Translations under genes and position numbers: made by a program | Origin: Candidatus Kapaibacterium sp. | GTDB lineage: Bacteria; Bacteroidota; Ignavibacteria; Kapaibacteriales; UBA4661 | Length of the DNA: 64,000 nucleotides | Reading direction: 5' to 3' | Assembly: GCA_025455065.1 (NCBI GenBank) | Contig: JALONG010000015.1 | Span: 1 to 64,000 of the forward strand | Shown: positions 22,374 through 43,700 of the stretch, one piece after another | How the letters are laid out: each line of letters starts with the position of its first letter | Position numbering within the stretch: position 1 is the stretch's first letter | Notes under the pieces: model-generated | Databases searched by the model: none | The model's input: the letters and a program-made list of their open reading frames with translations, nothing else | What the model was told of the DNA's origin: nothing

Positions 22374-22480
22374 AAGATTGTGGAATAAGCCTACGCCCAT
22401 TCGGTGGAGGAAGTTGCCAAGCGTTTGTTGTCGTGAACACACCATTTTTATCGTGCATATCATAATTGAGGAGGTACAAG

Positions 22481-25348
22481 ATGTCGTCCTACGGTAATTA
22501 TTGGGCAAAAGCCCGCAAAGCCGCAGAAAATCAGCCTGCGGTGTATCATTTGTTGCCGTATCATTTGTTGGATGTGGCGGCGGTGGGCTACACGCTTTTG
22601 GAGCAAGATACGCGGCTTCGGAAGCGTCTTGCAGACTTGTGTGGTATGGAAGAAGATGCGCTACATCTGTGGCTCGTGTTTATGTTGGCGTTGCATGATG
22701 TGGGGAAGTTTTCGCAGCAATTTCAGCAGATGAGGGATGATATTGTTACTGAATGTTTTCACCAACATTCGCTGAGAAGCATTTCACCGCAAAAGATTCA
22801 TCATACAACACTTGGCTACGCACTCTGGAAATTTTACCATCAAACGTGGTTTCATGCACTCAAGGATAATCCTTGCGCTATGCTTTGGAAGCAGATTGAG
22901 CAATGCTATACCGAAGCCGATACACCAAATTTTTGGATTCATGCAATCATGGGGCATCACGGGAAACCAATTGAACTTGGACAAGCAAATTCGATACGCG
23001 GTAAGCAAAGAAGTGACTGCTTTTCTGAACAAAACGTTGAGGCTGCATCAGCGTTTGTCGTAGATATGTCTGAAGTTTTTGCCGACTTATTTAATGAACA
23101 GATTGACGCTGACCAATTTTTTGTAAAAACACCTCTTTCACCTGCTGCATCGTGGGTGGTAGCGGGATTCGCTGTATTATGTGATTGGCTTGGTTCAGAC
23201 GAGCGATATTTTCCCTATAAGTCTGATGAAATTTCACTAGTTGAGTATTGGAAAAACTATGCAAATCTCAATGCACAAAAAGCAATTTCACAAAGTGGGG
23301 TGATTCCTGCAAAACCGGGCGAGGTGAAGACTACCGCTCAATGGTTTGGTTTTCCACCAAGCCCGCTTCAAGAATATGCTGAAAGCATTTCGCCTCTTGC
23401 ACTTGAACCTGCCTTGTACATTATCGAAGATTTAACCGGATCCGGTAAGACAGAAACGGCATTACTTTTAGCGAACCGCATCATTACTGCTGGTAATGCC
23501 GATGGAATTATGGTTGCTCTGCCGACAATGGCAACAAGCGATGCAATGTATGAGCGACTTGCAGAACAATATCAAGGATTATTTGCAAAAGATACTGCGC
23601 CGTCGTTAGCTCTCACACACAGCGCAGCAAAATTCCATGAGGGCTTTCGAGAAACGCTCGTGCCTCCCGAACATTGGCAGGATGATTCATATTCGCCAAA
23701 GACCAAAGAGATTGATGAATCAAGTATCTCTGCAGTATGCAACCGATGGTTTGCTGATTATCGTAAAAAATCTGTGTTGGCTGATGTTGGCGTGGGAACG
23801 ATTGATCAAATCCTGCTGTCGGTACTGCACAGCACGCACCAATCCTTGCGCTTATTCGGACTTTCTCGTAAAGTTATCATTGCCGACGAAATTCATGCTA
23901 ACGATACCTATATGCACAAACTCCTATGCGAAGTATTGAGGTTTCATGCAGCATTTGGTGGAAGTGCAGTTCTGCTTTCCGCTACCTTACCGATTGGAAT
24001 GAAACGCGAATTATCACAAGCATTTATTGAGGGCGCAAGGGGTTTAGAATCGGGGAAGTATGCGCTTTCTGACACTGAAAATGCTGGATTATCGCACACC
24101 GCTTATCCGCTTTTTACCACCGTACAGAGTTATTCAACACACGAAACTATTGACGCGAAGCCATTTCCAGCACGTAATTCTCTGCGACGCAGAGTACAGC
24201 ATAAATTTCTTCGTTCTGAAAAAGAAGCGTTGCAGCGTGTAGTAGAGGCATCACAAAGCGGTTGCGTACTCTGGATTCGCAATACTGTTAGTGATGCGAT
24301 GGCTGCATTTGCTGAATTGCAAGACCAAATTGCCAATTCACATTTGACGCTGTTTCATGCGCGTTTTGCCCTCCAAGACCGCTTGGCGATTGGAAAAAAG
24401 GTGCTGAAACTAGCAGGCAAACAGAGTGTGGGCAAAGAGCGGCTGGGGCGGGTGGTGATTGCCACCCAAGTTGCCGAGCAGTCTTTAGACGTAGATTTCG
24501 ACTGTGTTATTACCGACCTCGCGCCAATGGATGTTTTGCTTCAACGCATGGGAAGGCTTTGTCGCCACAAGCGCGACGCGCAGGGCATTATGCACCCAAA
24601 CAACACAGGCAATGACCAGCGCAAGGCAGTGTGGTATGTGCTTGCGCCGCCGCTCACAGAACCAATAGCAGAGAATTGGTACTCAGCACTGTTCCCAAAC
24701 GGGCGATATGTCTATCAAAACCACGCTCAACTTTGGCGCACAGCAAGAGCATTGGAGCATCGGTCTGAACTTGTCATGCCGGAAGATGCGCGAACCCTTA
24801 TCAACGAAGTATTTAACTCTGCTGAAGAGCCGGAGGCTTTGGTAAAGCACTCCGACGCTGTTTTCAAAGAAAGTGGTATTCAAAAACAACAAGCTCGGCA
24901 AAACATCGTAAAATTACACGATGGCTACCAAAGAACAACCCAGTCATGGGCAGAAGGCGACGATATGCGCATAACACCGACACGATTGGGCGAAGAAAGC
25001 ACGACCGTGCGCCTTGCGCATTGGAACGATGACCACACTGCGCTTATTCCATGGGCAAAGCACAACGATCCGGGAATTGCATGGCGTTTGAGTGAGGTAT
25101 CGGTGCGCCGACGAGTGATTGCTGAGGAATACCACGACAACATCCCCAAAACCGTTCTGGATGCTGCTTTCGAGACCATGCCCGACAAAGGCGCAAATGC
25201 GGTAACAATCGTTTTATCACCAAGCGCAAGCGGTAGTTCAAGCAATGAAATGGAGCAATGGATGGGCAGTGCGCTCAATCTTTCTCGAGAACTTGTCAAT
25301 GTAGAATACTCCACCAAGCATGGTTTGATGTGGAAGAAAGCCAAATAA
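22481..25348 (+). CDS. cas3: CRISPR-associated nuclease/helicase Cas3 (type I-E)
   Basis: The protein is 955 aa from the ATG at 22481, preceded by the SD GAGGAGGT. The N-terminal HD nuclease domain carries LHDVGKF (about residue 74) and the later MGHHGKP motif. The superfamily 2 helicase part has LTGSGKTETA (Walker A), ADEIHAND (DExH), LLSATLP and the motif VI-like QRMGRLCRH. Cas3 is recruited by Cascade bound to target DNA, then nicks and degrades it. It is fused in the usual HD-helicase order. It is separated from cas8e by an unusual 2-kb insertion (25349-27408). Confidence 0.97.
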   Translation: MSSYGNYWAKARKAAENQPAVYHLLPYHLLDVAAVGYTLLEQDTRLRKRLADLCGMEEDALHLWLVFMLALHDVGKFSQQFQQMRDDIVTECFHQHSLRSISPQKIHHTTLGYALWKFYHQTWFHALKDNPCAMLWKQIEQCYTEADTPNFWIHAIMGHHGKPIELGQANSIRGKQRSDCFSEQNVEAASAFVVDMSEVFADLFNEQIDADQFFVKTPLSPAASWVVAGFAVLCDWLGSDERYFPYKSDEISLVEYWKNYANLNAQKAISQSGVIPAKPGEVKTTAQWFGFPPSPLQEYAESISPLALEPALYIIEDLTGSGKTETALLLANRIITAGNADGIMVALPTMATSDAMYERLAEQYQGLFAKDTAPSLALTHSAAKFHEGFRETLVPPEHWQDDSYSPKTKEIDESSISAVCNRWFADYRKKSVLADVGVGTIDQILLSVLHSTHQSLRLFGLSRKVIIADEIHANDTYMHKLLCEVLRFHAAFGGSAVLLSATLPIGMKRELSQAFIEGARGLESGKYALSDTENAGLSHTAYPLFTTVQSYSTHETIDAKPFPARNSLRRRVQHKFLRSEKEALQRVVEASQSGCVLWIRNTVSDAMAAFAELQDQIANSHLTLFHARFALQDRLAIGKKVLKLAGKQSVGKERLGRVVIATQVAEQSLDVDFDCVITDLAPMDVLLQRMGRLCRHKRDAQGIMHPNNTGNDQRKAVWYVLAPPLTEPIAENWYSALFPNGRYVYQNHAQLWRTARALEHRSELVMPEDARTLINEVFNSAEEPEALVKHSDAVFKESGIQKQQARQNIVKLHDGYQRTTQSWAEGDDMRITPTRLGEESTTVRLAHWNDDHTALIPWAKHNDPGIAWRLSEVSVRRRVIAEEYHDNIPKTVLDAAFETMPDKGANAVTIVLSPSASGSSSNEMEQWMGSALNLSRELVNVEYSTKHGLMWKKAK

Positions 25349-25351
25349 GGT

Positions 25352-25382
25352 TTGGCTGAATGAAGAGAAGAGCGTACTTTTG
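25352..25382 (+). promoter_or_regulatory. Bacteroidota-type promoter just after cas3
   Basis: TTG at 25352-25354, a 20-nt spacer and TACTTTTG at 25375-25382 fit TTG-N19..21-TAnnTTTG exactly. It begins 4 bp after the cas3 stop. It would drive the orphan repeat, the DUF2335 cassette and the mini-array, independently of cas3. Confidence 0.6.
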
Positions 25383-25454: not shown

Positions 25455-25483
25455 TTCTTTCCCGCTGACGCGGGGATGAACCA
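25455..25483 (+). CRISPR. Orphan CRISPR repeat upstream of the DUF2335 cassette
   Basis: The stem CCCGC/GCGGG and seven of the eight handle bases (ATGAACC, then A instead of G) match the main repeat. The first three bases and two loop bases differ. Conservation of stem and handle suggests Cas6e could still cut it. No second repeat stands 61 bp downstream, and I found no match in the window for the 32 bases that follow (25484-25515). Confidence 0.75.
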
Positions 25484-26104: not shown

Positions 26105-26194
26105 ATGTTTCCCGCACACGCGGGGATGAACCGATGAACCTAAGATAACTTGATATATATCAAGAGCTTTTCCCGCACACGCGGGGTTTTCGTT
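26105..26194 (+). CRISPR. Two-repeat mini-array, candidate CreA/CreR-like guide RNA
   Basis: Repeat 1 (26105-26133) matches the main repeat at 28 of 29 positions, with stem and handle ATGAACCG intact. A spacer of exactly 32 nt follows (26134-26165). Repeat 2 (26166-26194) keeps the 15 stem-loop bases, while the handle is replaced by TTTTCGTT. Repeat 2 can thus still be cut by Cas6e but cannot start another crRNA, and its GC stem plus T-run may also end transcription. The spacer partly matches 26207-26238 just downstream. This layout (good first repeat, degenerate second repeat, nearby partial target promoter) is that of creA antitoxin RNAs and of guides that repress cas operons. Transcription would come from 25352-25382 or from cas3. 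Confidence 0.8.
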
Positions 26195-26203
26195 TTTATA
26201 TCA

Positions 26204-26238
26204 AAGATGAATCTAAGGTAACTTTTTATATTTTTTCT
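26204..26238 (+). promoter_or_regulatory. Partial protospacer with AAG PAM upstream of the HTH-fic-cas8e promoter
   Basis: AAG (26204-26206) precedes 32 bases that match the mini-array spacer at positions 1-5, 7-11, 13-18, 21-25 and 27 (22 of 32). The mismatches at 6 and 12 fall on the positions Cascade flips out and does not pair. The PAM-distal end (28-32) does not match. AAG is the canonical type I-E PAM. The site abuts the promoter's upstream element (TTG at 26238-26240), so bound Cascade should block RNA polymerase without a full R-loop, and hence without Cas3 attack. Confidence 0.75.
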
Positions 26239-26268
26239 TGACTAAATCAGAAAATTTTGATACGTTTG
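26238..26268 (+). promoter_or_regulatory. Bacteroidota-type promoter of the HTH-fic-cas8e operon
   Basis: TTG (26238-26240), a 20-nt spacer and TACGTTTG (26261-26268) fit the consensus. It lies 40 bp upstream of the HTH gene start and overlaps the end of the partial protospacer. Confidence 0.65.
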
Positions 26269-26308
26269 TACTGAGTTCACAAACACACAAATTTTTTCTA
26301 TCACGTCC

Positions 26309-26560
26309 ATGCAAAAACTCAACGGGCATTTTTCTACATCCCAAACCTTGTTTGACGTTCCAACAAACAATCGTGGTTATGCAACCACCGAATTTTTACG
26401 TCAAAACAAAAATTTACTAAATATAACAAAATTGGCGAAAATTGCCGGTATTAAATCCGATGCGGTTTTGTCAGCTGTGCGATACAACCACCAACTAACC
26501 ATGGATGAGTCTATGCGACTCACCGCAGCATTAGAAAAATGTGGATTTCGGGTGATATAG
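26309..26560 (+). CDS. Small HTH-like protein paired with Fic
   Basis: The protein is 83 aa. The C-terminal half (TEFLRQNKNLLNITKLAKIAGIKSDAVLSAVRYNHQLTMDESMRLTAALEKCGF) reads as a short Cro-like or phage-type helix-turn-helix domain. The N-terminal 25 residues are polar and unassigned. The stop is one base before the fic ATG, so the two are surely co-expressed. It could be an antitoxin or autoregulator for Fic, by analogy with FicTA-type pairs. It is not an obvious VbhA/FicA homologue, because no antitoxin-type SxxxE(G/N) motif was seen here; that motif is in Fic itself. Confidence 0.65.
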   Translation: MQKLNGHFSTSQTLFDVPTNNRGYATTEFLRQNKNLLNITKLAKIAGIKSDAVLSAVRYNHQLTMDESMRLTAALEKCGFRVI

Positions 26561-26561
26561 A

Positions 26562-27386
26562 ATGCCCACCCCACCCCGCATCACCGACCGCACCTTCTTT
26601 GTGGAATACACGGCACACCCGCGTCCACAGTCGCTCGGCGCACTCTGGGCGCAGTTTGCCGCACTGGAAATTGCACCTGACAATATGCGGGGCGCAGATA
26701 CGTTGCCAATGCTTGCTTTCGCCAATGATGTTGCCTCTGTTCATTCCTCGCAAATTGAAGGAAATTCACTCGACCTCAATTTTTTTATGCAGTCCAAGCA
26801 GCGTGGCGAGGTTGCAAAGCCTAAAAAACGTGAGTTTCAGGAAATTGAAGATGTACGTGCGGCATACAATTTTGCTCAAGAACATTCTCTCACCGAACAG
26901 CACTTCCTTCATGCACATAAAACATTGTCAAAGCGTTTTTTGATTACCTCCAAACGCGGGAATTATCGCAATCACGGCATGATGATTCAAAGTGCTGGAG
27001 GTATTGAATACGTTGCCATTGAGGAAGAGTATATACCTGAAGCGATGCAACAATTTTGGAATGGAATAGAGCATCTGAAACAACAAGACCTTTCACCCTC
27101 AGAAGCCTTTTACCATGCGGCTTTACTGCATTTAGTGTTTGTGCATATTCATCCGTTTTCCGACGGTAATGGTCGGAGTGTTCGCCTTTTGGAAAAATGG
27201 TTTTTAGCCCATCATCTTGGAAAACGTGCGTGGCACATTCCTTCGGAAACACTCTATTTGGAGCATCGCAAAGCCTACTTTGCCAATATCAAACTTGGCG
27301 TGAATTACTACGAACTCGACTATAGCCGAGCAATGCCGTTTCTGCTCATGTTGCCCGAAGCCTTGACGATATTTCTTGATTCTTAA
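26562..27386 (+). CDS. Fic domain protein (probable AMP-transferase) inside the cas operon
   Basis: The protein is 274 aa. The Fic core motif HPFSDGNGR (about residues 198-206) is complete, with the catalytic His, the phosphate-binding DGNGR and a following RLLEKW helix. A class II-type inhibitory helix motif (S/T)xxxE(G/N) is present as SSQIEG (about residues 62-67), so the enzyme is predicted to be self-inhibited until released. Fic proteins transfer AMP or another phosphate-containing group to Ser, Thr or Tyr of targets, and many are toxins. It follows the HTH gene by 1 bp and ends 22 bp before cas8e, so it shares the Cascade transcript. Fic is not a usual member of type I-E loci. Confidence 0.93.
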   Translation: MPTPPRITDRTFFVEYTAHPRPQSLGALWAQFAALEIAPDNMRGADTLPMLAFANDVASVHSSQIEGNSLDLNFFMQSKQRGEVAKPKKREFQEIEDVRAAYNFAQEHSLTEQHFLHAHKTLSKRFLITSKRGNYRNHGMMIQSAGGIEYVAIEEEYIPEAMQQFWNGIEHLKQQDLSPSEAFYHAALLHLVFVHIHPFSDGNGRSVRLLEKWFLAHHLGKRAWHIPSETLYLEHRKAYFANIKLGVNYYELDYSRAMPFLLMLPEALTIFLDS

Positions 27387-27408: not shown

Positions 27409-29130
27409 ATGGAACGTTACAACCTTCTCGTTGAACGCTGGATTCCTGTGCAAACTCATAGCGAAAAGCGCCTGTGGGTACGCCCTTGCGACATAGTTGC
27501 CACCGAAGACCCTGTGATCACTATTGATTGGAATCGCGCTGATTTTAACGCCGCTACGCTTGAGTTTCTTATTGGTCTTTTGCAAACCTGCTTTGCGCCA
27601 AAAAACGAAGCCGAATGGCGCAATTACTACGCTGCACCACCTTCGGTTGAAGACTTGCAAACCGCCTTCCAACGCTATGAAGAAGCGTTTTATTTGAACG
27701 GAGAAGGATACCGCTTTATGCAAGACCCCACAGCCGCCGGAGATGTTGCGAAGAAAGATGATTGGGAGCCGATGACAAAACTCCTCATTGACGCTCCGGG
27801 TGGCAATACTATCAAGGAAAATAAAGATCATTTTGTAAAGCGCACCGAAGGCGGTTTTTCTTTGCCTGTTGCAGCAATCGCGCTCTACACGCTACAAACG
27901 TATGCGCCATCAGGCGGGCAAGGACACCGAACATCCATTCGCGGCGGTGGACCGATGACGACCATTCTTTTAGCCGCAGAACCTCGCAATTCAACCGAAA
28001 AGCCAACGCTATGGCGTACACTTTGGATGAACGTTTTACCACAATCGGAAATAGATTCCTTGCCCGGAAACCCTGATAAAAACTCGATTGGTGATATTTT
28101 TCCTTGGATGAAGCCCGTGCGATTAAGTAAAGAAAAAAACAGCGAAGTAATTCCTGATATGGCGAATCCGCTTCTGCCCTTGTGGGCAACTCCGCGCCGC
28201 ATTTACTTTGATTTTTCAACATTGAATACGGAAAATCTACCGTGTCTTGTGGAAGCAGAATGCCGTACACAAGTGTTGATCAGGTATTCAGCGCAAAATT
28301 ATGGTGAGAATTATCCAACAAATCTTTGGGAACATCCGCTTTCGCCCTATTATTTCGATAAAAAACAGCATTTGCCTGAACACCCGCAACCGGGCGGCAT
28401 CCGTTGGAAATACTGGCTTGGCTGTGTAGGTTTGCAACAAAAGGAGGATGATATTCTGAAACGCCCAGCGCGGGTAGTGCGATATTTTCGTACTCGTCGC
28501 AGCGAAGAACATCCTGAATGGCTTGATACAATGCGGGTTTCAGCTTTTGGTTATGACATGAAAAATATGGAAGCACGGTGTTGGTACGCTGGAGAAATGC
28601 ACGTCATTTTGAATGAAATGGATGAAGGTAGAGTGCGGGCAATTCTTATTCAAAGCATTGATGCTGCCACAGAAGCCGCACAAATGCTGAACCGATACAC
28701 AACAGCATTTTTCTACGATACTCAAGCTCAATTCTGGTCGGCAAGCGAGCAACCGTTTTTTGAACATCTGAAAATTTTGTCTAACCTTGTGCGCGAAGCG
28801 CAGCAGCAGCCGAATCCCGAAACATGGATTGATGAACACACGAACAGCCTGAACACACGGTGGTTTCTGGTTTTGCGAGGGCTGTGTTTTTCAATCGTTC
28901 AGAGACTCGCCGAATCCTATCCGCCTGAAGGCGTGAAAGCAAAGCAAGTCTATCAGCAGGTGGGAGAATTTCAGAAGTGGTTTACGGTCAATATCCAAAA
29001 GACGTTAGGGCTTTCCAAAGATATTGTTCAAGACGCAAAAGAGAAAAAAGCGAAAGAAAAAAAAGAGAAAAAAGCATCTGCCGCGAAAGCCAATAAAACA
29101 AGCCCAAAGAAACAAACTTCTGATAATTGA
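27409..29130 (+). CDS. cas8e: Cascade large subunit Cas8e (Cse1/CasA)
   Basis: The protein is 573 aa from the ATG at 27409 (MERYNLLVERWIPV, the typical Cse1 start). Cse1 signatures include the N-terminal DIVATEDP region, PTAAGDVAKKDDWEPMTKLLIDAPGGNTIKENKDHF and the GGGPMTTIL loop. It reads the PAM, opens target DNA and recruits Cas3. It is longer than E. coli Cse1 (502 aa), partly because of a Lys/Ala-rich tail of about 30 residues (KEKKAKEKKEKKASAAK...), probably a disordered DNA-contacting extension. It is the first cas gene of the Cascade operon. Confidence 0.96.
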   Translation: MERYNLLVERWIPVQTHSEKRLWVRPCDIVATEDPVITIDWNRADFNAATLEFLIGLLQTCFAPKNEAEWRNYYAAPPSVEDLQTAFQRYEEAFYLNGEGYRFMQDPTAAGDVAKKDDWEPMTKLLIDAPGGNTIKENKDHFVKRTEGGFSLPVAAIALYTLQTYAPSGGQGHRTSIRGGGPMTTILLAAEPRNSTEKPTLWRTLWMNVLPQSEIDSLPGNPDKNSIGDIFPWMKPVRLSKEKNSEVIPDMANPLLPLWATPRRIYFDFSTLNTENLPCLVEAECRTQVLIRYSAQNYGENYPTNLWEHPLSPYYFDKKQHLPEHPQPGGIRWKYWLGCVGLQQKEDDILKRPARVVRYFRTRRSEEHPEWLDTMRVSAFGYDMKNMEARCWYAGEMHVILNEMDEGRVRAILIQSIDAATEAAQMLNRYTTAFFYDTQAQFWSASEQPFFEHLKILSNLVREAQQQPNPETWIDEHTNSLNTRWFLVLRGLCFSIVQRLAESYPPEGVKAKQVYQQVGEFQKWFTVNIQKTLGLSKDIVQDAKEKKAKEKKEKKASAAKANKTSPKKQTSDN

Positions 29131-29218: not shown

Positions 29219-29890
29219 ATGGCAGAAATAGAATCTCCTCCTTCCGCCAGCGAGCCAGAAGGCACTTCCGAAAGCACCAATAAATCTCCACAATTTTATT
29301 GGAAGATTGACTCCGACCGCGACGCAACACCCGTTCTCAGGGCGTGGTTCACGCGCTTGCATGGTACGCCCGTAAACACACCTGCCGAATATGTTCGGAT
29401 GCCCGACAAAGGCGCACGGGCTGAACTTCGCCGCTGCCGCACACCGGACAAAGCAGCCATGACCCCCTGTTGCGGTGAACTCTTCCGCGATTTGCAAGTG
29501 GCGAAGTTGATAAATCAGAATGACGAAACTGCCCCTCGGTTTGAACAAAATCTTATTCGCATTGGCATCATTGCCGGAGTTGCATCGCATCTGTACGCAG
29601 ATTCGGTGCGCGGCACAGTAAGGCTTGGGCGACAAATGTCTTCTATGCAAGGCGGTGAAGAAGGCAAACCCCTTGTCAGCGAAGCACGATTTCGCCGCTT
29701 GCTGCTCTCGCACGATTCGCCCGAAGAATTGATGGTGAACATGATTCGCATTGTGCAGCAGATTGATACGAGCGGCAGCAGCCTGAACGTGTTTGATATT
29801 GCAAACACTCTTTGGTGGTTTGATTTTGTCGGCACTCGGCAGCGTCTTGCCTACGATTACTACACATTTTTACCACAAGCAAAAAAATAA
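29219..29890 (+). CDS. cas11: Cascade small subunit Cas11 (Cse2/CasB)
   Basis: The protein is 223 aa; the family is usually 160-200, the excess being an acidic Ser/Pro/Glu-rich N-terminus. The Cse2 core is recognisable from RAWFTRLHGTPVNTPAEYVRMPDKGARAELRRCRTPDKA, then RFRRLLLSHDSPEELMVNMIRIVQQI and NVFDIANTLWWFD. It forms the dimer along the Cascade belly that stabilises the displaced DNA strand. There are 88 bp between cas8e and this gene. Confidence 0.93.
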   Translation: MAEIESPPSASEPEGTSESTNKSPQFYWKIDSDRDATPVLRAWFTRLHGTPVNTPAEYVRMPDKGARAELRRCRTPDKAAMTPCCGELFRDLQVAKLINQNDETAPRFEQNLIRIGIIAGVASHLYADSVRGTVRLGRQMSSMQGGEEGKPLVSEARFRRLLLSHDSPEELMVNMIRIVQQIDTSGSSLNVFDIANTLWWFDFVGTRQRLAYDYYTFLPQAKK

Positions 29891-29923
29891 ATTCTTTTCA
29901 CATCTTATCATTTTTCTACAACT

Positions 29924-31003
29924 ATGACACGATTCTTGCAACTGCACTTTCTTACCTCCTTTGCCGCATCAAACCTGAATAGAGACGATAGCGGTTCTCC
30001 AAAAAACATCCGTATTGGCAATACGAAACGTTTGCGAATTTCCTCGCAATCGCTCAAAAGAGCATGGCGCACATCCGACACATTCCAGCAAGCACTTGGC
30101 GGCAATATCGGCACACGGACACGAAGATTGGGCATTAAGATTTACGAAGACTTGATAGCGGGCGGCATTGATGAAAAAAATGCGGAAGAAATTGCCATCA
30201 AGATTGTCGGAGTATTTACTGATAACGAAGATAAAAAGGAAAATAAACTTGAAACAAAGCAACTCTTTCATATCAGTCCACAAGAGCTGCAATCTGTCAA
30301 TGCGCTTGTCGCGGAAATTTGCGCAAGTAAAGCTACTCCTAAAAACGACGACGAACGCTACAAACTGCTTCGCAAAGAACACACTGCCGCTGATATTGCT
30401 GCATTTGGCAGAATGTTCGCCAGCAATCCGGAAAAGAATAGCGACGCAGCCGTACAGGTAGCACACGCTTTTACCGTACATCCGGCAACGGAAGAAGACG
30501 ATTATTTCACGGCGGTGGATGACCTCAAAAGCAAAGAACAAAGCGGATCTGGATTCTTGGGCGTGGCGTATTTGGGTGCGGGGGTATATTATTCGTACAT
30601 CTGCGTAGATATGCCGCTTTTGCTTGAAAATCTCGGTGGTAATCTTGACCTTGCAGAGCGCACCATTACCGCACTTATTGAATGTGCCTCGACTGTTGCA
30701 CCCACAGGAAAGCAAAATAGCCATGCTTCGCGGGCATACGCACACTACATTTTGGCAGAGGCAGGACACCAAGTACCGCGCCAGTTGTCGCTTGCTTTTG
30801 TGCAGCCTATTACCTCCGCAACCGTTGTAGAAGATTCTATCAAGGCTTTAGAAACCACCGAAGGTGCATTTGAAAAAATGTATGGTGCCTGCCGTAACGC
30901 ATTTGCCCGTGCGAACTTTGTACAACAAGAAGGTAGTTTGAACGAAATTAAGAATTTTGCTCAAGAACATATTCGCGCTGTTCACGGTGCAACGAAAGGA
31001 TAA
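29924..31003 (+). CDS. cas7e: Cascade backbone subunit Cas7e (Cse4/CasC)
   Basis: The protein is 359 aa, the expected size. The N-terminus QLHFLTSFAASNLNRDDSGSPKNIRIGNTKRLRISSQSLKRAWR is the hallmark of Cas7e (nascent Asn-Arg-Asp-Asp and SSQSxKRAxR). Gly-rich segments GFLGVAYLGAGVYYSYICVD complete the RRM-like backbone fold. Six copies wrap the crRNA in Cascade. The conserved thumb of each subunit is what flips out every sixth nucleotide, relevant to the mini-array target at 26204-26238. Confidence 0.96.
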   Translation: MTRFLQLHFLTSFAASNLNRDDSGSPKNIRIGNTKRLRISSQSLKRAWRTSDTFQQALGGNIGTRTRRLGIKIYEDLIAGGIDEKNAEEIAIKIVGVFTDNEDKKENKLETKQLFHISPQELQSVNALVAEICASKATPKNDDERYKLLRKEHTAADIAAFGRMFASNPEKNSDAAVQVAHAFTVHPATEEDDYFTAVDDLKSKEQSGSGFLGVAYLGAGVYYSYICVDMPLLLENLGGNLDLAERTITALIECASTVAPTGKQNSHASRAYAHYILAEAGHQVPRQLSLAFVQPITSATVVEDSIKALETTEGAFEKMYGACRNAFARANFVQQEGSLNEIKNFAQEHIRAVHGATKG

Positions 31004-31007
31004 TTGC

Positions 31008-31880
31008 ATGAGACACTTCCTGCTTTGGACGCTCTATGCACCTTTGGCATCCTTTGGTGATGTTGCCGTAGGCGGCACACGACCTTCCTTTTCCTACCCG
31101 ACAAAATCATCAATCATTGGTATGCTGGCAGCCGCATTGGGGCTGCGCCGTGAGCAATCATCCGCAATAGAAGTCTTGGCACAATCACTTGGATTTGCCG
31201 TGCGCGTGGAGCGTGGCGGAGAACGGTTTGAAGATTTTCACACTGTTCAAACGCCAAAACAAAAGATTCTCAACGATAATACGTGGATTGCTACACGCAA
31301 GGATGCACTTCATCCAATCCACAAATCAAACGATGGCGTTGCAACGATATTATCCACACGAGAATACGTGCAAAACGGTATTTATTCGGTGTGTGTGTGG
31401 CTCAAAGAAGAAACTGCTCCGTATTCATTAGAATCCCTTGCGAATGCTCTCCAAAGCCCAGTATTCACGCTGTATTTGGGGCGAAAATCTTGTCCGCTTG
31501 CACTCCCCTTGAAGCCATTCCATTGTGAAACTTTGACGCTTACCGATGCACTGCGTCAGTATAACGAAAAGGCACAGCCATTAGCTATTATTCACCGCGA
31601 ATACGGTGCAGAAAAGAAAGAATTGGTAGCAAAGTGCTGGGATGTGTTGCAAAAAAAGCCGTCTATTTTCGATGATTTTAGCCCAGATAATTCCTCACAA
31701 CAGCATTATGTCTATTGGGATGCGTCTTTGCCATCACACGAAGCAGGTTTTTCAACGACCTCATTCCAGCAAAAACGCCGCGACGAACCCCGCTCCCGCA
31801 CCAAATGGCAATTCGGTGAACGCTTTGAGTATTCGGCTATTCTCGACGAACCCGCAACACCGGAGGCGCAGCATGACTAA
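31008..31880 (+). CDS. cas5e: Cascade subunit Cas5e (CasD)
   Basis: The protein is 290 aa from the ATG at 31008, 4 bp after the cas7e stop; the longer frame from 30957 overlaps cas7e and is rejected. The start RHFLLWTLYAPLASFGDVAVGGTRPSFSYPTKSSIIGMLAAALG is typical of Cas5e, with the Gly-rich PTKS..IG loop that holds the 5' handle of the crRNA. It is somewhat longer than E. coli Cas5e (224 aa). It overlaps cas6e by 8 bp. Confidence 0.94.
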   Translation: MRHFLLWTLYAPLASFGDVAVGGTRPSFSYPTKSSIIGMLAAALGLRREQSSAIEVLAQSLGFAVRVERGGERFEDFHTVQTPKQKILNDNTWIATRKDALHPIHKSNDGVATILSTREYVQNGIYSVCVWLKEETAPYSLESLANALQSPVFTLYLGRKSCPLALPLKPFHCETLTLTDALRQYNEKAQPLAIIHREYGAEKKELVAKCWDVLQKKPSIFDDFSPDNSSQQHYVYWDASLPSHEAGFSTTSFQQKRRDEPRSRTKWQFGERFEYSAILDEPATPEAQHD

Positions 31881-32586
31881 TCCGCTCTATTTCTCCAAAA
31901 TCACCCTCCGCGAGTCTGCACCTATCAGCAAACTCCGCGAACTCAGCTACGACGGCTACGCACCGCATAAAACCATCTGGCAACTGCTTTCCCGCAGTCC
32001 CACACAAGAGCGCGATTTTCTCTTTCGCTACGACATTGAGCCGCGAAGCGGTTTGCCACGCTTTTATGTGGTCTCGTGCCAAGAAGCCAAGGATACAAGC
32101 GGGCTTTGGGATATTCAAACAAAACCGTATCTCGTGCAGGAGCCTGAAAAACCGTCTCTCTTCACACTTGGCGACCAATTCCGCTTTTCCCTGCGGGTGA
32201 ATCCCACATTCGATAAATCTGACCGTTCCAAAAAGCAGAAACAACGCCATGATTTGATTTGCCATCTCCGCAAGCAACTTCCCAAAAACGCTCACGGTGA
32301 GCGCGAAGAACCTCACGCCGCAACCGAACACCGTGCGTGCAAAGAATGGCTGGAACGAAAAACAACTCTGGGTTTTCGGCTCGTGAATCCTGATGAATCC
32401 TTGCTTGTGGAACAGTACGACCAACTCCGCTTCAAGCACAAAGACCAAACCACAATTCTAAGCCGCGTGGATATGAGCGGTGTCTTGGAAGTAACGGATG
32501 TGAAAAAGTTTTGGGATAATCTCACCAAAGGCATCGGACACGGAAAAGCCTTCGGTTGCGGACTGTTGCTTATTCGGCGGGTGTAG
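31873..32586 (+). CDS. cas6e: crRNA endoribonuclease Cas6e (Cse3/CasE)
   Basis: The protein is 237 aa. The N-terminal RRM has YFSKITLRESAP and a candidate catalytic His in YAPHKTIWQLL; the C-terminal Gly-rich loop is GIGHGKAFGCGLLLIRR. Cas6e cuts the repeat at the base of its hairpin and stays bound to the 3' end of the crRNA. The CCCGC/GCGGG stem of the main array, the mini-array repeats and the orphan repeat all fit its substrate. It is the last Cascade gene. The stop is 6 bp from the convergent vapC stop. Confidence 0.95.
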   Translation: MTNPLYFSKITLRESAPISKLRELSYDGYAPHKTIWQLLSRSPTQERDFLFRYDIEPRSGLPRFYVVSCQEAKDTSGLWDIQTKPYLVQEPEKPSLFTLGDQFRFSLRVNPTFDKSDRSKKQKQRHDLICHLRKQLPKNAHGEREEPHAATEHRACKEWLERKTTLGFRLVNPDESLLVEQYDQLRFKHKDQTTILSRVDMSGVLEVTDVKKFWDNLTKGIGHGKAFGCGLLLIRRV

Positions 32587-32592
32587 GCGGTC

Positions 32593-32973
32593 TTATTCCC
32601 ACACACGCTCCACATCGTAGGCATCGAAAGCCTCATCACTACTGACGACGGGCAGGTTTTCGGCTATGGCTTGGGCAATGATGATGCGGTCAAACGGGTC
32701 GCGGTGGTGATGCGGTAAGGCGGAGAGTTGTTGTATATGCTTGATTTCAATAGGCAATACGGTAAGAATATCGTCATGATTTTGCATAATCTCTTCGATA
32801 CTGGCTGTGAGGCGTAGCTTGCCGAGCGAGTGTTTGATGCACATCTCCCATGGTGTGGCAATGGAAAGAAGGCAGTTTCTCGCTTCAATCATGGAATACG
32901 CTTTCTTCGGAAGTGGCTTGCCAACATCAATCATGGCAAGAAACGCATTGGTATCCAACAAAATATTGCTCAT
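32593..32973 (-). CDS. PIN-domain toxin, VapC-like
   Basis: The protein is 126 aa. The PIN-domain acidic residues are visible: LLDTNAFLAM (first Asp), SPWE-like TPWEMCIKHSLGKL (Glu), RDPFDRIIIAQA (Asp) and VSSDEAFDAYDV (Asp). The RDPFDR variant is typical of the VapC group that pairs with short AbrB/Phd-like or DUF2281-like antitoxins. VapC toxins are Mg-dependent RNases that cut tRNA or rRNA. Its ATG overlaps the antitoxin stop by 4 bases. It is transcribed against the Cascade operon and sits between cas6e and cas1, where no gene is usual. Confidence 0.9.
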   Translation of the reverse strand: MSNILLDTNAFLAMIDVGKPLPKKAYSMIEARNCLLSIATPWEMCIKHSLGKLRLTASIEEIMQNHDDILTVLPIEIKHIQQLSALPHHHRDPFDRIIIAQAIAENLPVVSSDEAFDAYDVERVWE

Positions 32974-33215
32974 ACATACTCCTCAAATCCTTCGGGAAGA
33001 GCATCAAAATCATCAGCTATAAAAGCAACAACGCCCGGCATTCGCCCGAATTTACCGGTGTTGGTCGGTATTGAGGAGGATTGTGAATGTGCTTGGTGTG
33101 CTGCCCAAATTTCCATCGTGCGAGCAACAAGCACATCCAACGAAATACCTTCCGAAGCAGCGTATTTCCTTGCTGTTTCGAGGATGTGCGGCGGTAAATC
33201 AAGTGTTACAGGCAT
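32970..33215 (-). CDS. Antitoxin partner of the VapC-like toxin
   Basis: The protein is 81 aa from the ATG at 33215 (MPVTLDLPPHILETARKYAASEGISLDVLVARTMEIW), a ribbon-helix-helix-like N-terminus with a short strand then two helices. The C-terminus ends DDFDALPEGFEEYV, the kind of tail that wraps around PIN toxins. The pair reads antitoxin then toxin with a 4-base overlap. Its promoter region is shared with the 5' end of cas1 (33216-33280), so it may influence expression of the adaptation genes. Confidence 0.8.
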   Translation of the reverse strand: MPVTLDLPPHILETARKYAASEGISLDVLVARTMEIWAAHQAHSQSSSIPTNTGKFGRMPGVVAFIADDFDALPEGFEEYV

Positions 33216-33261
33216 GATTGAATCCTTATTGTATTGAGCAAAAAACGGTATAATTTCTCTC

Positions 33262-33280
33262 ACAAATATACGCGATTTGT
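33262..33280 (-). promoter_or_regulatory. Promoter -7 element and palindromic operator candidate between vapBC and cas1
   Basis: TATATTTG, read on the minus strand (33270-33263), fits TAnnTTTG. It lies within the inverted repeat ACAAAT-N7-ATTTGT (33262-33267 and 33275-33280), which ends one base before the cas1 ATG at 33281. The -33 element is weak. It is a candidate site for toxin-antitoxin autoregulation that would also cover the cas1 start. Confidence 0.45.
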
Positions 33281-34610
<1,330 letters not shown>

Positions 34611-34763
34611 CGAGGCTTTGCGCCTATACCCTTGGAAGCAAGGTTTGAAGAGGCTTGCAGGGGATAAAAACATCAAGGTTTTATGCGCCTTGTGGAGCAT
34701 TGCTTGTTGGTAACTTTTTTGTACATTTGCAAACTATTGTTTTGCAATGGGATAGGTATTAGT
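34611..34763 (+). promoter_or_regulatory. CRISPR leader with array promoter
   Basis: This is a 153-bp region, AT-rich in its last 60 bp, between cas2 and repeat 1. TTG (34700-34702), 19 nt and TACATTTG (34722-34729) form a Bacteroidota-type promoter directed into the array, with a start expected about 28 nt before repeat 1. In type I-E the leader is where Cas1-Cas2 inserts new spacers. An IHF site could not be assigned by eye. Confidence 0.75.
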
Positions 34764-37700
34764 ACGTTTCCCGCACACGCGGGGATGAACCGGTATAAAT
34801 CATGACACTTGGCAGAAAAAAAGAACGTTTCCCGCACACGCGGGGATGAACCGCGTTTACACAGAATGACGCGGTTTTTGCAATCACGTTTCCCGCACAC
34901 GCGGGGATGAACCGTCACCCTGTACATTCTGCTCTAATTCAAGATTACGTTTCCCGCACACGCGGGGATGAACCGCAAATCCAAATCCTCTTCGGTCTTT
35001 TTACGTTACGTTTCCCGCACACGCGGGGATGAACCGTTTCTCGCTGAAATCTTCTGCTAATGCGTCCCACGTTTCCCGCACACGCGGGGATGAACCGCAC
35101 ACAAGCGTATTGAAACCAAGCGGCGCAATACGTTTCCCGCACACGCGGGGATGAACCGGCATAGTGAAAAACTATTACTGCCTCACGAAGACGTTTCCCG
35201 CACACGCGGGGATGAACCGTAGCGGACACACAATCAACAACAGCGCATCCGACGTTTCCCGCACACGCGGGGATGAACCGTGTATGTTATCTCGACGGTC
35301 ATAGTTCAAATGACGTTTCCCGCACACGCGGGGATGAACCAACGCTTTTGCAGCTTGCATAGGCGTTAGCTGCACGTTTCCCGCACACGCGGGGATGAAC
35401 CGCATTTGACTTTATCGGTAGAAATTGTGAAAGTACGTTTCCCGCACACGCGGGGATGAACCGAAATGTGATACAACGCGGCTTTATTGGGCAGCACGTT
35501 TCCCGCACACGCGGGGATGAACCGCGTTTTATAGTATTCGATTCGTTTTGCTACTTACGTTTCCCGCACACGCGGGGATGAACCGCTGTCGGGGCGCTTC
35601 TTGCGCGGTCAATTATGACGTTTCCCGCACACGCGGGGATGAACCGTTTACAATTCGGGCAAAGCGGTTATTCGTGAAACGTTTCCCGCACACGCGGGGA
35701 TGAACCGGATTTTCTATTGCCTGTGATGTATTTTATGATACGTTTCCCGCACACGCGGGGATGAACCGGTTTTTCATAAACCGACAGGCGAAGAGATTTC
35801 ACGTTTCCCGCACACGCGGGGATGAACCGCCTTTGCCCATGTTTTGAAGCCCATAGAAGCCACGTTTCCCGCACACGCGGGGATGAACCGGCTACAAACC
35901 AAAGGAGCAACAACAATGACAAACGTTTCCCGCACACGCGGGGATGAACCTTGAAGTTGATACTGAGAGCGCTGACAAAGGGAACGTTTCCCGCACACGC
36001 GGGGATGAACCGTTACGGGCTGCGCAATTAACGGCAAAAACAATACGTTTCCCGCACACGCGGGGATGAACCGACCGCCATTCTAATTTCAACTGTTTCC
36101 AAACCACGTTTCCCGCACACGCGGGGATGAACCGTGATTCATCATGGCACGGGCGAGGTCTTGGCTACGTTTCCCGCACACGCGGGGATGAACCGGGCAT
36201 CCCGATTGTCTGTGAAGTGCTTGTGCAACGTTTCCCGCACACGCGGGGATGAACCGGTTTTGCATCTGCTTTTTTCCACGATGAAATGACGTTTCCCGCA
36301 CACGCGGGGATGAACCGTTACTTGTCTCGCTTCCTAACTTGCTTTTGAGACGTTTCCCGCACACGCGGGGATGAACCGTATCATTGACGCAATTCGATGA
36401 ATAAACGCGAACGTTTCCCGCACACGCGGGGATGAACCGGCAGTGCAGAACTATTGGGATTGCGGCAACGTACGTTTCCCGCACACGCGGGGATGAACCG
36501 AGTTAGCGGCATGGGAAGAATCTGATGTGGCAACGTTTCCCGCACACGCGGGGATGAACCGGCGGTGAGTGATGACACCTGAACAACAAGTACACGTTTC
36601 CCGCACACGCGGGGATGAACCGCCGTTACGTGCATCAGCGAGTTTCTCTTCAGAACGTTTCCCGCACACGCGGGGATGAACCGTACAATATCGTTTGTTT
36701 TTGGCGGTATGGTCGACGTTTCCCGCACACGCGGGGATGAACCGCCTGAAAGGTCATTCGGTACGGGTTTCCCTTCACGTTTCCCGCACACGCGGGGATG
36801 AACCGCGCTTAATTTGTCGGTGCAAACGCTTTCTGGGACGTTTCCCGCACACGCGGGGATGAACCGCAGAAACGGAGCGCGTTAGGCTAATGGCAGTAAC
36901 GTTTCCCGCACACGCGGGGATGAACCGCATAAATTTGACCAAATAATGATTGAAAAAGGACGTTTCCCGCACACGCGGGGATGAACCGCATCTACCCATA
37001 ATTGATTTTCAACATTATATACGTTTCCCGCACACGCGGGGATGAACCGTGGTGGGAATTTATATCAAATGTCTGTTCAAGACGTTTCCCGCACACGCGG
37101 GGATGAACCGCATTAGAAATTTTTCGGCGAATTGCCCGTGATACGTTTCCCGCACACGCGGGGATGAACCGGGGGCGTTCGCCCAAACTATTCCTGAGTT
37201 TCTACGTTTCCCGCACACGCGGGGATGAACCGTTCGGGCGGTACAATTCGCAACGTTATGATTGACGTTTCCCGCACACGCGGGGATGAACCGGCTATCG
37301 TGTCAATACGCAGCCTGTTGAGGTTACGTTTCCCGCACACGCGGGGATGAACCGGCTTGGTGCGGACGGTGAACGCGCAATCTACGACGTTTCCCGCACA
37401 CGCGGGGATGAACCATTTTTTTGCCAATCAAGGAAATTTGGTATTGCACGTTTCCCGCACACGCGGGGATGAACCGCATAGCGGGTTAGAGAAACGGTTA
37501 TCTCGTCGACGTTTCCCGCACACGCGGGGATGAACCGAGCTTATTCAGGTAGTTGAAAACGCTGGTAAAACGTTTCCCGCACACGCGGGGATGAACCGCA
37601 ATACGTTTCTACCATTTTTTTGCAAAAAATACGTTTCCCGCACACGCGGGGATGAACCGTAATGATGAATCTTTTTCGTTACTATAAAAACACGTTTCCC

Positions 37701-40700
37701 GCACACGCGGGGATGAACCGCCTTTGAGCAGGAAATTGGCGCGTTTCGGCAAACGTTTCCCGCACACGCGGGGATGAACCGACCGTGAAATTTTTTGGGA
37801 ACGCGCAAAGAAAACGTTTCCCGCACACGCGGGGATGAACCGACTGTTCTATAATTGGCAAAATAAGACTGTCGACGTTTCCCGCACACGCGGGGATGAA
37901 CCGCTGTGAGCCTGTTATGCTTGCCGTCAATGACGACGTTTCCCGCACACGCGGGGATGAACCGATTCACCGCCAAACGGCATTGAAACTGTGCTTACGT
38001 TTCCCGCACACGCGGGGATGAACCGGCATTTGGTGACCAACCGCAAAATCAAAGCAACACGTTTCCCGCACACGCGGGGATGAACCGGAAAATCATACTT
38101 TCTGTGGTGGCAAAATAGGACGTTTCCCGCACACGCGGGGATGAACCGACTGTTGTCATCAATAGCTTTAATTTCCTCAAACGTTTCCCGCACACGCGGG
38201 GATGAACCGGCAGTTTTTACGGAGACCCCGGCGAGTCCAAGACGTTTCCCGCACACGCGGGGATGAACCGCGATGAACGTTATTGTTGAAGGCGGTGATT
38301 TCACGTTTCCCGCACACGCGGGGATGAACCGTTAAGAAGTGACAAGTCACCACCGACAATAACACGTTTCCCGCACACGCGGGGATGAACCGGCATAGAA
38401 TCTGTGCTTATCGCTAATCGTGGTACGTTTCCCGCACACGCGGGGATGAACCGTTCGCCCCAATGCGGACGTATGCAATGATTTCACGTTTCCCGCACAC
38501 GCGGGGATGAACCGGCGGATTAGATAACTTAGGCAGCGCGGCGGAAACGTTTCCCGCACACGCGGGGATGAACCGATGACGGGATTTTGGGCGGTGAGGC
38601 AACATTCCACGTTTCCCGCACACGCGGGGATGAACCGCACATTGTAGTTAATTCCTGCCATTTTATGCGACGTTTCCCGCACACGCGGGGATGAACCGAA
38701 TGTATGCGCCCGAAAATTTACGCTGTCGGTACGTTTCCCGCACACGCGGGGATGAACCGCGAGTGATGACGAAACGCCCTGGTGTGCTGCAACGTTTCCC
38801 GCACACGCGGGGATGAACCGAAACGCCGTTTTCCTTCATTTGCCGCACCGCTACGTTTCCCGCACACGCGGGGATGAACCGCACCCCAGTTTGTTTCGGC
38901 TGGCTGCCTCCTCACGTTTCCCGCACACGCGGGGATGAACCGGTATGCAGCACTCCAAAAAAGTGCGGTGAATCACGTTTCCCGCACACGCGGGGATGAA
39001 CCGCCATGTTTGGGCTTGTTTGGATGATATTTGCTACGTTTCCCGCACACGCGGGGATGAACCGAACGCAGGCATCAGAAGTATTCGAGATGCACGACGT
39101 TTCCCGCACACGCGGGGATGAACCGTCGGACAAAACCCGCGTGGGTTATGTAACGGCACGTTTCCCGCACACGCGGGGATGAACCGCAACATTTTAACTG
39201 AAAACAGAACGCTAAAAAACGTTTCCCGCACACGCGGGGATGAACCGTTTTTCACCATTGCCGCTTCGTCAATAACAGAACGTTTCCCGCACACGCGGGG
39301 ATGAACCGATGACGGGATTTTGGGCGGTGAGGCAACATTCACGTTTCCCGCACACGCGGGGATGAACCGCTCAATATCTTTTGTGATTTTTAGTTCACTC
39401 AACGTTTCCCGCACACGCGGGGATGAACCGAAAACATTCGAGGAAATTAAGAAAATAGGCAGACGTTTCCCGCACACGCGGGGATGAACCGCGCTCTCAC
39501 GGTTGAGTTTATGCACCTGAACAACGTTTCCCGCACACGCGGGGATGAACCGCGTGACGGCAAACACGGTAACAATGTCTCTTGACGTTTCCCGCACACG
39601 CGGGGATGAACCGACACGTTCCAAACAGGCGATACGATTTCTCCTACGTTTCCCGCACACGCGGGGATGAACCGGTTTCCGCACACTTACACCTACAACG
39701 CTGACAACGTTTCCCGCACACGCGGGGATGAACCTGCTATTCCAATTGCAATACCATTGCCAACCACACGTTTCCCGCACACGCGGGGATGAACCGGCAT
39801 TGTTACAGGCGTTGTCACAAAAGGTTTCACGTTTCCCGCACACGCGGGGATGAACCGAACAGCCCACCGCCTCTGTCTGAATACAGTAACACGTTTCCCG
39901 CACACGCGGGGATGAACCGTTTTGTGCGCTCTTCGTAGTCATCGCGGCGTGACGTTTCCCGCACACGCGGGGATGAACCGTTTGATAAACCCAAACCCGC
40001 GCCTCTGTGATGACGTTTCCCGCACACGCGGGGATGAACCGTGGTATCTGTGGCACGCGCACCTAACGCAAGGACGTTTCCCGCACACGCGGGGATGAAC
40101 CGATTGATGCAACGGCGGGGGCGGCGGGTGTGAGACGTTTCCCGCACACGCGGGGATGAACCGACGTGCAATGCCAAAATTTGCTTGCCAACGTGACGTT
40201 TCCCGCACACGCGGGGATGAACCACCACAGCACCGCTTCGTACCAGTTCGCCCATGACGTTTCCCGCACACGCGGGGATGAACCGGCGTTTTGCTTTGCT
40301 TGATTTTCACAAAACGGACGTTTCCCGCACACGCGGGGATGAACCGCCTACCGCGCAGCACGAAAAGCAGGCAAAACCACGTTTCCCGCACACGCGGGGA
40401 TGAACCGTTGCGGTCTCATTAGGGATTGAGGTATAGCAAACGTTTCCCGCACACGCGGGGATGAACCGCCTGTTCCGCCTGTGAGCGGATTTGCTGCTTG
40501 GACGTTTCCCGCACACGCGGGGATGAACCGGTTTTTCGGCGGTTGTTGTAAAAGCTACGTTTACGTTTCCCGCACACGCGGGGATGAACCGTAACTTAGC
40601 GTCTGCTATTCCGCCACGCCCCTACGTTTCCCGCACACGCGGGGATGAACCGAACAGCCCACCGCCTCTGTCTGAATACAGTAACACGTTTCCCGCACAC

Positions 40701-43700
40701 GCGGGGATGAACCGCGGTATCCAAAGGGGGTCATCTTGCGTACACGACGTTTCCCGCACACGCGGGGATGAACCGACTCTTTCCCCGGTTCAATCTACGC
40801 CCAAAAGACGTTTCCCGCACACGCGGGGATGAACCGTACATTGCCATAACCTGATTCAGCATTTTGTTACGTTTCCCGCACACGCGGGGATGAACCGAGA
40901 ATCCCGTGTACACCAAACCGCCTGACTTTACGTTTCCCGCACACGCGGGGATGAACCGCTATCTCGTGGTTGCTTCTGGCGATAGCATGACACGTTTCCC
41001 GCACACGCGGGGATGAACCGAGTTTCGGAAAACATTCCGCAATCGGTTGTTGACGTTTCCCGCACACGCGGGGATGAACCGCAAATCACGCTCACGTTCA
41101 ATCCTATATCGAAACGTTTCCCGCACACGCGGGGATGAACCGTTTTACATACAGCAGCCCGGCTGCTTCGGCTGACGTTTCCCGCACACGCGGGGATGAA
41201 CCGGTTCAGGACATTGCCTACGACCCAGAAACCAAACGTTTCCCGCACACGCGGGGATGAACCGGCGGGCATCTTGCCTATACGGAACTCATTGACACGT
41301 TTCCCGCACACGCGGGGATGAACCGCCGTTTTTCCAACAGGAAAAACACTCTGTCCCACGTTTCCCGCACACGCGGGGATGAACCGCGCTCTCCGCGCCC
41401 ACGAAAGAGGAAATTGAGACGTTTCCCGCACACGCGGGGATGAACCGTATCATTACTCGCATCAACTGTGACTCTATTCACGTTTCCCGCACACGCGGGG
41501 ATGAACCGCTCTCAACATTCCGCGCATGGGCGGCGGTATAACGTTTCCCGCACACGCGGGGATGAACCGCACTCTCCGCGCCCACGAAAGAGGAAATTGA
41601 GACGTTTCCCGCACACGCGGGGATGAACCGGCAAACGGAGAGTATCAATTATCCGCCGATGCACGTTTCCCGCACACGCGGGGATGAACCGGTGTTCCGC
41701 CGCACCCTGTCATTGCCAATTTTACGTTTCCCGCACACGCGGGGATGAACCGGCTGCGAATATCTTATCCTTTGGTATGTGAACACGTTTCCCGCACACG
41801 CGGGGATGAACCGGTATTTTGCAATGGTTGATGTAACAGTTATCGACGTTTCCCGCACACGCGGGGATGAACCGAGGCGTTCACGGCAGGTGGGCTTGCT
41901 TCGGGCACGTTTCCCGCACACGCGGGGATGAACCGCTGAAGGTTGGTGGTTCGAGTCCGCCTCTCGCACGTTTCCCGCACACGCGGGGATGAACCGTTCT
42001 GGGGTGCAATAGGCTCAATCGTGCTGAGAACGTTTCCCGCACACGCGGGGATGAACCGCCCCGAAGCCGCGAAAATCCTGCGTTTGTCCAACGTTTCCCG
42101 CACACGCGGGGATGAACCGAAAAATCTCTCCAATGCCAGCACTCACATACAACGTTTCCCGCACACGCGGGGATGAACCGTAACGTCGGGCAATCCGACT
42201 GTGCTTGCTGTTACGTTTCCCGCACACGCGGGGATGAACCGCCACCAATAGCCTTTCTCAAAATGCGGCAAACGACGTTTCCCGCACACGCGGGGATGAA
42301 CCGGACAGGTTTAACCTACAACGACAACACGATAGACGTTTCCCGCACACGCGGGGATGAACCGCGCGTCGGGCGCATCGTCGGGGTTTTTGGCTTACGT
42401 TTCCCGCACACGCGGGGATGAACCGGTGCTTGTAGGTTTTATGTGGCAACAACCAATACGTTTCCCGCACACGCGGGGATGAACCGACAATTTCATCGAA
42501 ACACGTGTCGAATTGCAGGACGTTTCCCGCACACGCGGGGATGAACCGGTGATTTTCATGCCGGACGATTTGGCGTTTCGACGTTTCCCGCACACGCGGG
42601 GATGAACCGCGCCGGAGCGTGTGATTTTACCAGCATCGGTGACGTTTCCCGCACACGCGGGGATGAACCGCAAAAATGCGTACACTCATATTACACTAGG
42701 GTACGTTTCCCGCACACGCGGGGATGAACCGCAATTCACAGAGCGCTTTGGCAATGTTGCCGCACGTTTCCCGCACACGCGGGGATGAACCGCCGCTCAC
42801 GGTTCAGAGCGCGGAGAGGGCTATACGTTTCCCGCACACGCGGGGATGAACCGCGTTTAATAAGAGCCTCACGCTTCAATTCCTCACGTTTCCCGCACAC
42901 GCGGGGATGAACCGCGATTGGCACTGCACAACAGCAATTAGGGAAAACGTTTCCCGCACACGCGGGGATGAACCGTTCGCTCACCCCTTTTGACGGTATG
43001 CTATACAACGTTTCCCGCACACGCGGGGATGAACCGATTCGCTGCCGATTAGAATTTTCATCACTCACACGTTTCCCGCACACGCGGGGATGAACCGCAT
43101 TACAGAGCAGGTACAGGCAGCGCGGACGGACGTTTCCCGCACACGCGGGGATGAACCCACCACCTGCGGCGGATTAAGCCCGTTTCCCGCACGTTTCCCG
43201 CACACGCGGGGATGAACCGCCAATAGGTTTAGTCGGTTCTACTGTTGATGTACGTTTCCCGCACACGCGGGGATGAACCGATTTGGCGCGGCGCACAGGC
43301 GCTTTGCCTGAAACGTTTCCCGCACACGCGGGGATGAACCGTTTTTTTAGGGGAAATTGAAAATAAATTTGACACGTTTCCCGCACACGCGGGGATGAAC
43401 CGCGGATTGATTCACCGATTTTGCGGAAATAAAAACGTTTCCCGCACACGCGGGGATGAACCGTAATCACACAATGACAAAATAATGAATGCCGGACGTT
43501 TCCCGCACACGCGGGGATGAACCGTATGTCTTATTAGGCATATTAAAGTTCCAACCACGTTTCCCGCACACGCGGGGATGAACCGCAACTTGCGGCGGAT
43601 TTTGAGGGGTTGCAAAAACGTTTCCCGCACACGCGGGGATGAACCGCGAGAGCGGAAATTGCTAGAGATTATTCACAAACGTTTCCCGCACACGCGGGGA

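Follow-up and report, generated by a model that had tools for sequence, protein, structure and literature searches.

Organization of the type I-E locus

The window, i.e. the whole 64-kb stretch of Candidatus Kapaibacterium sp. DNA analysed here, hosts a complete type I-E cas set. Genes and repeats follow each other in the order cas3, P1, R0, orf68, DUF2335, mini-CRISPR, P2, HTH, Fic, cas8e-cas11-cas7-cas5-cas6, a VapBC-like pair, cas1-cas2 and the main array, P1 and P2 being putative promoters and R0 a solitary repeat. Positions in the window are as follows.

22466-25348, plus strand: cas3, upstream of the P2 operon and not part of it
25455-25483, plus strand: R0, solitary repeat with an intact handle, identical to the array repeat at 23/29 residues
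25528-26104, plus strand: orf68 and the gene of a DUF2335 membrane protein, between R0 and the first repeat (R1) of the mini-CRISPR
26309-26560, plus strand: gene of an Xre-type HTH protein of 83 aa, assigned from a predicted model with weak fold matches
26562-27386, plus strand: gene of a Fic AMPylator, with HPFSDGNGRSVR at residue 197 and the inhibitory SSQIEG at residue 62
27409-29130, plus strand: cas8e, with which the Cascade genes of the presumed operon begin
29219-32586, plus strand: cas11, cas7, cas5 and cas6 (type I-E)
34764-44805, plus strand: main CRISPR array, 165 repeats and 164 spacers

The genes from cas8e to cas6 reside downstream of HTH-fic on the same strand, are separated by short gaps, and are presumed to form a single operon, in which an internal promoter is possible. 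For the HTH protein, Pfam gave no match. The structure predicted for it (pLDDT 78) resembles P22 c2, restriction-modification controllers and antitoxins such as HipB and GraA, in all cases with weak E-values. Fic combines a complete catalytic motif with an inhibitory motif of its own, and its relatives in the order (43-52% identity) stand alone, without this HTH. Fic is likelier to be a self-inhibited AMPylator than to act as toxin in a classic two-gene pair.

R0 and R1 flank orf68 and the DUF2335 gene; downstream of P1, the mRNA of the two genes would thus have a Cas6e cutting site on either side. The sequence downstream of R0 was searched as a second guide, and no target was found.

The mini-CRISPR and its promoters

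The mini-CRISPR consists of two repeats and a single spacer, and follows the DUF2335 gene.

26105-26133, plus strand: R1, first repeat, identical to the array repeat at 28/29 residues, with an intact Cas6e stem and the 8-nt handle ATGAACCG
26134-26165, plus strand: guide spacer, 32 nt
26166-26194, plus strand: R2, second repeat, identical to the array repeat at 20/29 residues, with TTTTCGTT at the place of the handle
26126-26186, plus strand: predicted mature crRNA of 61 nt (8-nt handle, spacer and 3' hairpin), deduced from type I-E processing rules and RNA folding

The initial annotation had described two repeats spaced by 32 nt, the second of which keeps the stem and has lost the handle, and the alignments bear this out, the stem retained in R2 being TTTCCCGCACACGCGGGG. 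Together with the T-rich TTTTCGTTTTT that follows it, this stem has a terminator-like score. A feature that had escaped the annotation is that the spacer opens with a sequence almost identical to the repeat handle: GATGAACC is found twice in tandem across the R1/spacer junction (26125-26140). A search of Rfam gave no match. The PAM-distal half of the guide (26150-26165) is a perfect 16-bp palindrome, CTTGATATATATCAAG, which folds into a hairpin in the predicted structure of the free RNA.

Promoters were searched on both strands of the 64 kb as TTG-N17-21-TAnnTTTG. Matches are rare, 12 in all, and include P2, P1 and the leader of the main array.

25352-25382, plus strand: P1, TTG-N20-TACTTTTG, motif match directly after cas3, plausibly in use
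26238-26268, plus strand: P2, TTG-N20-TACGTTTG, motif match and presumed promoter of HTH-fic-cas8e (TTG at 26238-26240, TACGTTTG at 26261-26268)
26249-26299, plus strand: inverted repeat with 21-nt arms (71%) across the P2 core, a possible HTH operator
34700-34729, plus strand: leader promoter of the main array, TTG-N19-TACATTTG, motif match

P2 fits the Bacteroidetes type of promoter (TTG, about 19-20 nt, TAnnTTTG), and the matches at P1 and at the array leader sit where promoters are expected. P1, located 0.7 kb upstream of R1, is the sole promoter recognised by the motif search from which the mini-CRISPR could be transcribed, and none was recognised nearer to it on its upstream side. A transcript started at P1 would run through R0, orf68, DUF2335, R1, the guide and R2.

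The target of the guide

A partial copy of the spacer lies between R2 and the HTH gene.

26204-26206, plus strand: AAG, the PAM, directly 5' of the target
26207-26238, plus strand: target (protospacer), matching the spacer at 22/32 positions, including all of 1-5, 7-11 and 13-18

Spacer and target differ at positions 6, 12, 19, 20, 26 and 28-32. The initial annotation had reported this match behind AAG, the restriction of mismatches within positions 1-18 to 6 and 12, and a site that abuts P2. All three hold, and in addition the last base of the target is also the first base of the P2 TTG. The target starts 12 nt after the end of R2 and covers the region from about -68 to -37 relative to the presumed P2 start, which is in turn some 35 nt from the HTH ATG.

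Similarity of this extent is not expected by chance. In 3000 dinucleotide-shuffled versions of the intergenic region, 22/32 was never attained (the maximum was 21), nor was 15/15 at the pairing positions of 1-18 (maximum 13, or 11 when preceded by AAG). The window contains 2176 sites preceded by AAG, and the runner-up scores 10/15 at the pairing positions. AAG followed by spacer positions 1-15, with 6 and 12 left free and no mismatch allowed, occurs a single time in the 5.6-Mb genome. As an internal control, the 164 array spacers were compared to the window, and no comparable match was found except for duplicate spacers. Mismatches are unevenly spread, as they affect 2/18 of the first positions and 8/14 of the remaining ones (Fisher P 0.008, post hoc), and a test by position on the two at 6 and 12 gives 3/153, or 0.02, again post hoc.

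An 11-mer, GGTAACTTTTT, is common to the array leader (34700-34729) and the target (26217-26227), and is found beside both promoters. An 8-nt repeat, TATATCAA, was dismissed as being at chance level.

The PAM of the system

To derive the PAM, the array spacers were compared to nine genomes from within the genus or the family. One of them, G002, carries two protospacers of spacer 91 (numbering from 0), which match at 30/32 and 29/32 and both follow AAG directly. Copies of spacer 117 match at 30/32 and 28/32 behind AAG, and at 29/32 behind AAA; this spacer lies within a tRNA-like sequence, and some of its copies may not be true protospacers. The repeat ends in G in 159/165 array units, and in A, T or C in the others. 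In E. coli the last repeat base is copied from the PAM, and the prevalence of G is what copying of this kind would produce. Taken together, the protospacers of spacers 91 and 117 in G002 and the G at the repeat end identify the AAG at 26204 as the right PAM. Phage and viral collections searched with the array spacers for the same purpose gave no match.

The PAM evidence excludes the matches between spacer 44 and tRNA-like loci, because the first base is mismatched and the flanks differ. Spacers 44 (near 37477) and 117 (near 41936) both match tRNA-like sequences in sister genomes. Spacers 91 and 117 match the same contig of G002 (C394), which may be phage or prophage DNA. The array spacers at 38332-38363 and 44135-44166 are reverse-complement versions of a single variable sequence, a pattern that would fit uptake from related phages on either strand.

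Distribution among relatives

The only related type I-E locus found is in Kapaibacterium SKYG85, which belongs to the same genus, and its Cas8e is 31-36% identical. The SKYG85 locus lacks the whole block from P1 to Fic, HTH and mini-CRISPR included. There cas3 and cas8e overlap, whereas 2060 bp separate them here, and the block has therefore been either gained in this lineage or lost in SKYG85. Searches with Cas8e, HTH and Fic, run for the covariation of spacer and promoter, found no relative with this locus. Matches to HTH in plasmids and viral contigs, and relatives of Cas8e in viral contigs, were likewise not found.

Within the phylum, 28 other cas regions were examined. None of them includes fic, and no comparable mini-CRISPR was identified in the 21 with a recognised array. 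Ectopic repeats occur, as an exception, in a distant genome of the phylum (G305), in which two degenerate repeats (9293-9321 and 9733-9761 of locus L057, sense strand) surround a small ORF between cas3 and cas8e. No promoter match was found for the sequences downstream of them, and the repeats are absent from the locus of genome G172 (L061), despite a very similar cas3.

A putative Cascade-guided brake

The organization described suggests that the mini-CRISPR is probably a CreR-like autoregulatory guide, which would repress HTH-fic-cas8e-cas11-cas7-cas5-cas6. According to this model, Cas6e would cut the transcript of 26105-26194 within R1 and R2, releasing the 61-nt crRNA. Cascade loaded with this crRNA would bind AAG and 26207-26238 through positions 1-5, 7-11 and 13-18 and, by occupying the region upstream of the P2 start, would hinder RNA polymerase and lower the level of the operon transcript. 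The PAM-distal mismatches would keep Cas3 unlicensed, and leave the chromosome uncut. A shortage of Cascade, its engagement with other crRNAs, or its blockage by an anti-CRISPR would derepress the operon, and both Cascade and Fic would rise. Repression of HTH-fic-cas8e by Cascade and the guide had been proposed in the initial annotation, and each sequence feature on which the proposal could be checked (repeats, PAM, seed, promoter overlap) has been found.

In E. coli, AAG and a short seed are enough for Cascade binding, which is not reduced by mismatches over 19-32, and interference requires pairing over more than 18 bp (PMC5904413). The same article cites work in which promoter repression was strongly lowered by at least 6 PAM-distal mismatches, and the effect could accordingly be weak here; the guide may slow the operon modestly instead of shutting it off.

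The match between spacer and flank could also be read as a 26-nt direct repeat (26133-26158 and 26206-26231) functioning as a pair of operators for HTH autorepression, the CRISPR repeats being bystanders. The two copies are 85% identical, and the first gene after them encodes an Xre-type HTH protein. Proteins of this type usually autoregulate. This explanation is unlikely, as the similarity begins exactly at the spacer boundary, behind the PAM of the system, the bases spared are exactly those that pair in Cascade, and one of the copies is part of a crRNA unit whose Cas6 stems are intact. Moreover, the usual binding sites of Xre dimers are inverted repeats, and the one at 26249-26299 is better placed.

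A two-repeat array decayed to a neutral remnant, in which spacer and flank would stem from a local duplication including the repeat handle and would have no present function, is an improbable alternative. Because the spacer start resembles the handle, part of the match could indeed come from duplication: the tandem GATGAACC at the R1/spacer junction is echoed by GATGAATC, with which the target begins. R2 is degenerate, and related ectopic repeats with no promoter match occur elsewhere in the phylum. Random decay, on the other hand, would not have spared positions 1-18 as observed, divergence being concentrated outside the pairing positions (the post hoc values of 0.008 and 0.02 given above), nor does it account for AAG before the target, a nearly perfect R1 and the location of the target at a promoter.

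An accidentally self-acquired spacer, an autoimmunity scar survived by mutation of the target and devoid of a regulatory role, would fit the G at -1 expected from PAM-coupled acquisition and the AAG PAM, yet is very improbable for a solitary unit with a degenerate R2, outside the main array and 12 nt from its own target; as an origin, self-acquisition is compatible with a CreR-like function at present.

Comparison with known Cascade-guided systems

The CreR-like model places the mini-CRISPR next to known elements. Three articles (PMC13131331, PMC12737573, PMC12948488) describe CreR as a cas-regulating RNA encoded by mini-CRISPRs of types I-B, I-E and V-A, and its occurrence in type I-E is reported in the first (PMC13131331). 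The likeness resides in an ectopic mini-CRISPR made of the repeats of the resident system, with R1 almost unchanged and the R2 stem intact, in a target behind AAG at P2 matched at 22/32, in complete seed pairing at 1-5 and 7-11, and in cas effector genes that follow the targeted promoter in the same orientation. The locus differs from CreR in that genes for HTH and Fic stand at the head of the target operon, R2 is at the same time a terminator-like hairpin, pairing involves 16/18 of the first positions, and the host belongs to Kapaibacteriota.

CreA, the antitoxin RNA of CreTA (type I-B, haloarchaea and others; PMC8501985, PMC9458426), acts via positions 1-5 and 7-11, and leaves 6 and 12 free (PMC8501985). 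Two repeats, one of which is degenerate, a PAM-flanked partial target in a promoter and pairing at 1-5 and 7-11 are shared with the unit described here. In contrast to CreA, the more degenerate repeat is R2, not R1. In contrast to CreTA, a small toxic RNA is absent, as only the leader of about 35 nt is found, and protein genes are proposed to be repressed instead. Judging from these features, the locus is not CreTA. The initial annotation had likened the unit to both CreA and CreR. The likeness to CreR is the one that holds best; a guide acting as antitoxin for Fic is a weaker reading, as Fic is self-inhibited and its relatives stand alone, and its toxicity is hypothetical.

CrePA couples a protein toxin, CreP, to a crRNA-like antitoxin (PMC12737573), and similarly a potentially harmful protein gene may here be under a promoter guided by Cascade. 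CreP is typically a KilA-N protein encoded in a separate unit, whereas the locus has a self-inhibited Fic within a cas operon; a KilA-N domain was looked for in the first operon genes, and is absent, HTH and Fic being found in its place. A CrePA-like role is possible only if Fic is harmful. CreR and CrePA could be merged here, with one guide placing both the Cascade genes and Fic/HTH under Cascade feedback, so that both would rise when Cascade is disabled or occupied; we regard this combined scheme as tentative and rather doubtful. The triggers would be anti-CRISPRs or a heavy phage load, and the scheme would connect anti-CRISPR attack to a Fic response in a testable way.

Self-control of Cascade is already known elsewhere, and the new element is the HTH-Fic pair within a putatively autoregulated Cascade operon. 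If the model is correct, RNA-guided self-repression of type I-E extends to Kapaibacteriota, with a protein-modifying enzyme in the same loop, and Cascade would act as a natural repressor, with 16/18 PAM-proximal bases paired, differences among these 18 confined to the flipped-out ones, and mismatches in the PAM-distal part.

Fic itself shares HxFx(D/E)GNGRxxR and an N-terminal (S/T)xxxE(G/N) in the same protein with class II AMPylators such as SoFic. It differs from them in the separate upstream HTH protein and in the position in a cas operon, in contrast to the stand-alone relatives of the order. Assignment to the class I FicTA toxin-antitoxin systems was rejected, because SSQIEG is in Fic itself, the HTH is of the Xre type, and a separate (S/T)xxxE(G/N) antitoxin is missing. 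A VapBC-like toxin-antitoxin pair is located between cas6 and cas1-cas2, on the minus strand (32593-33311).
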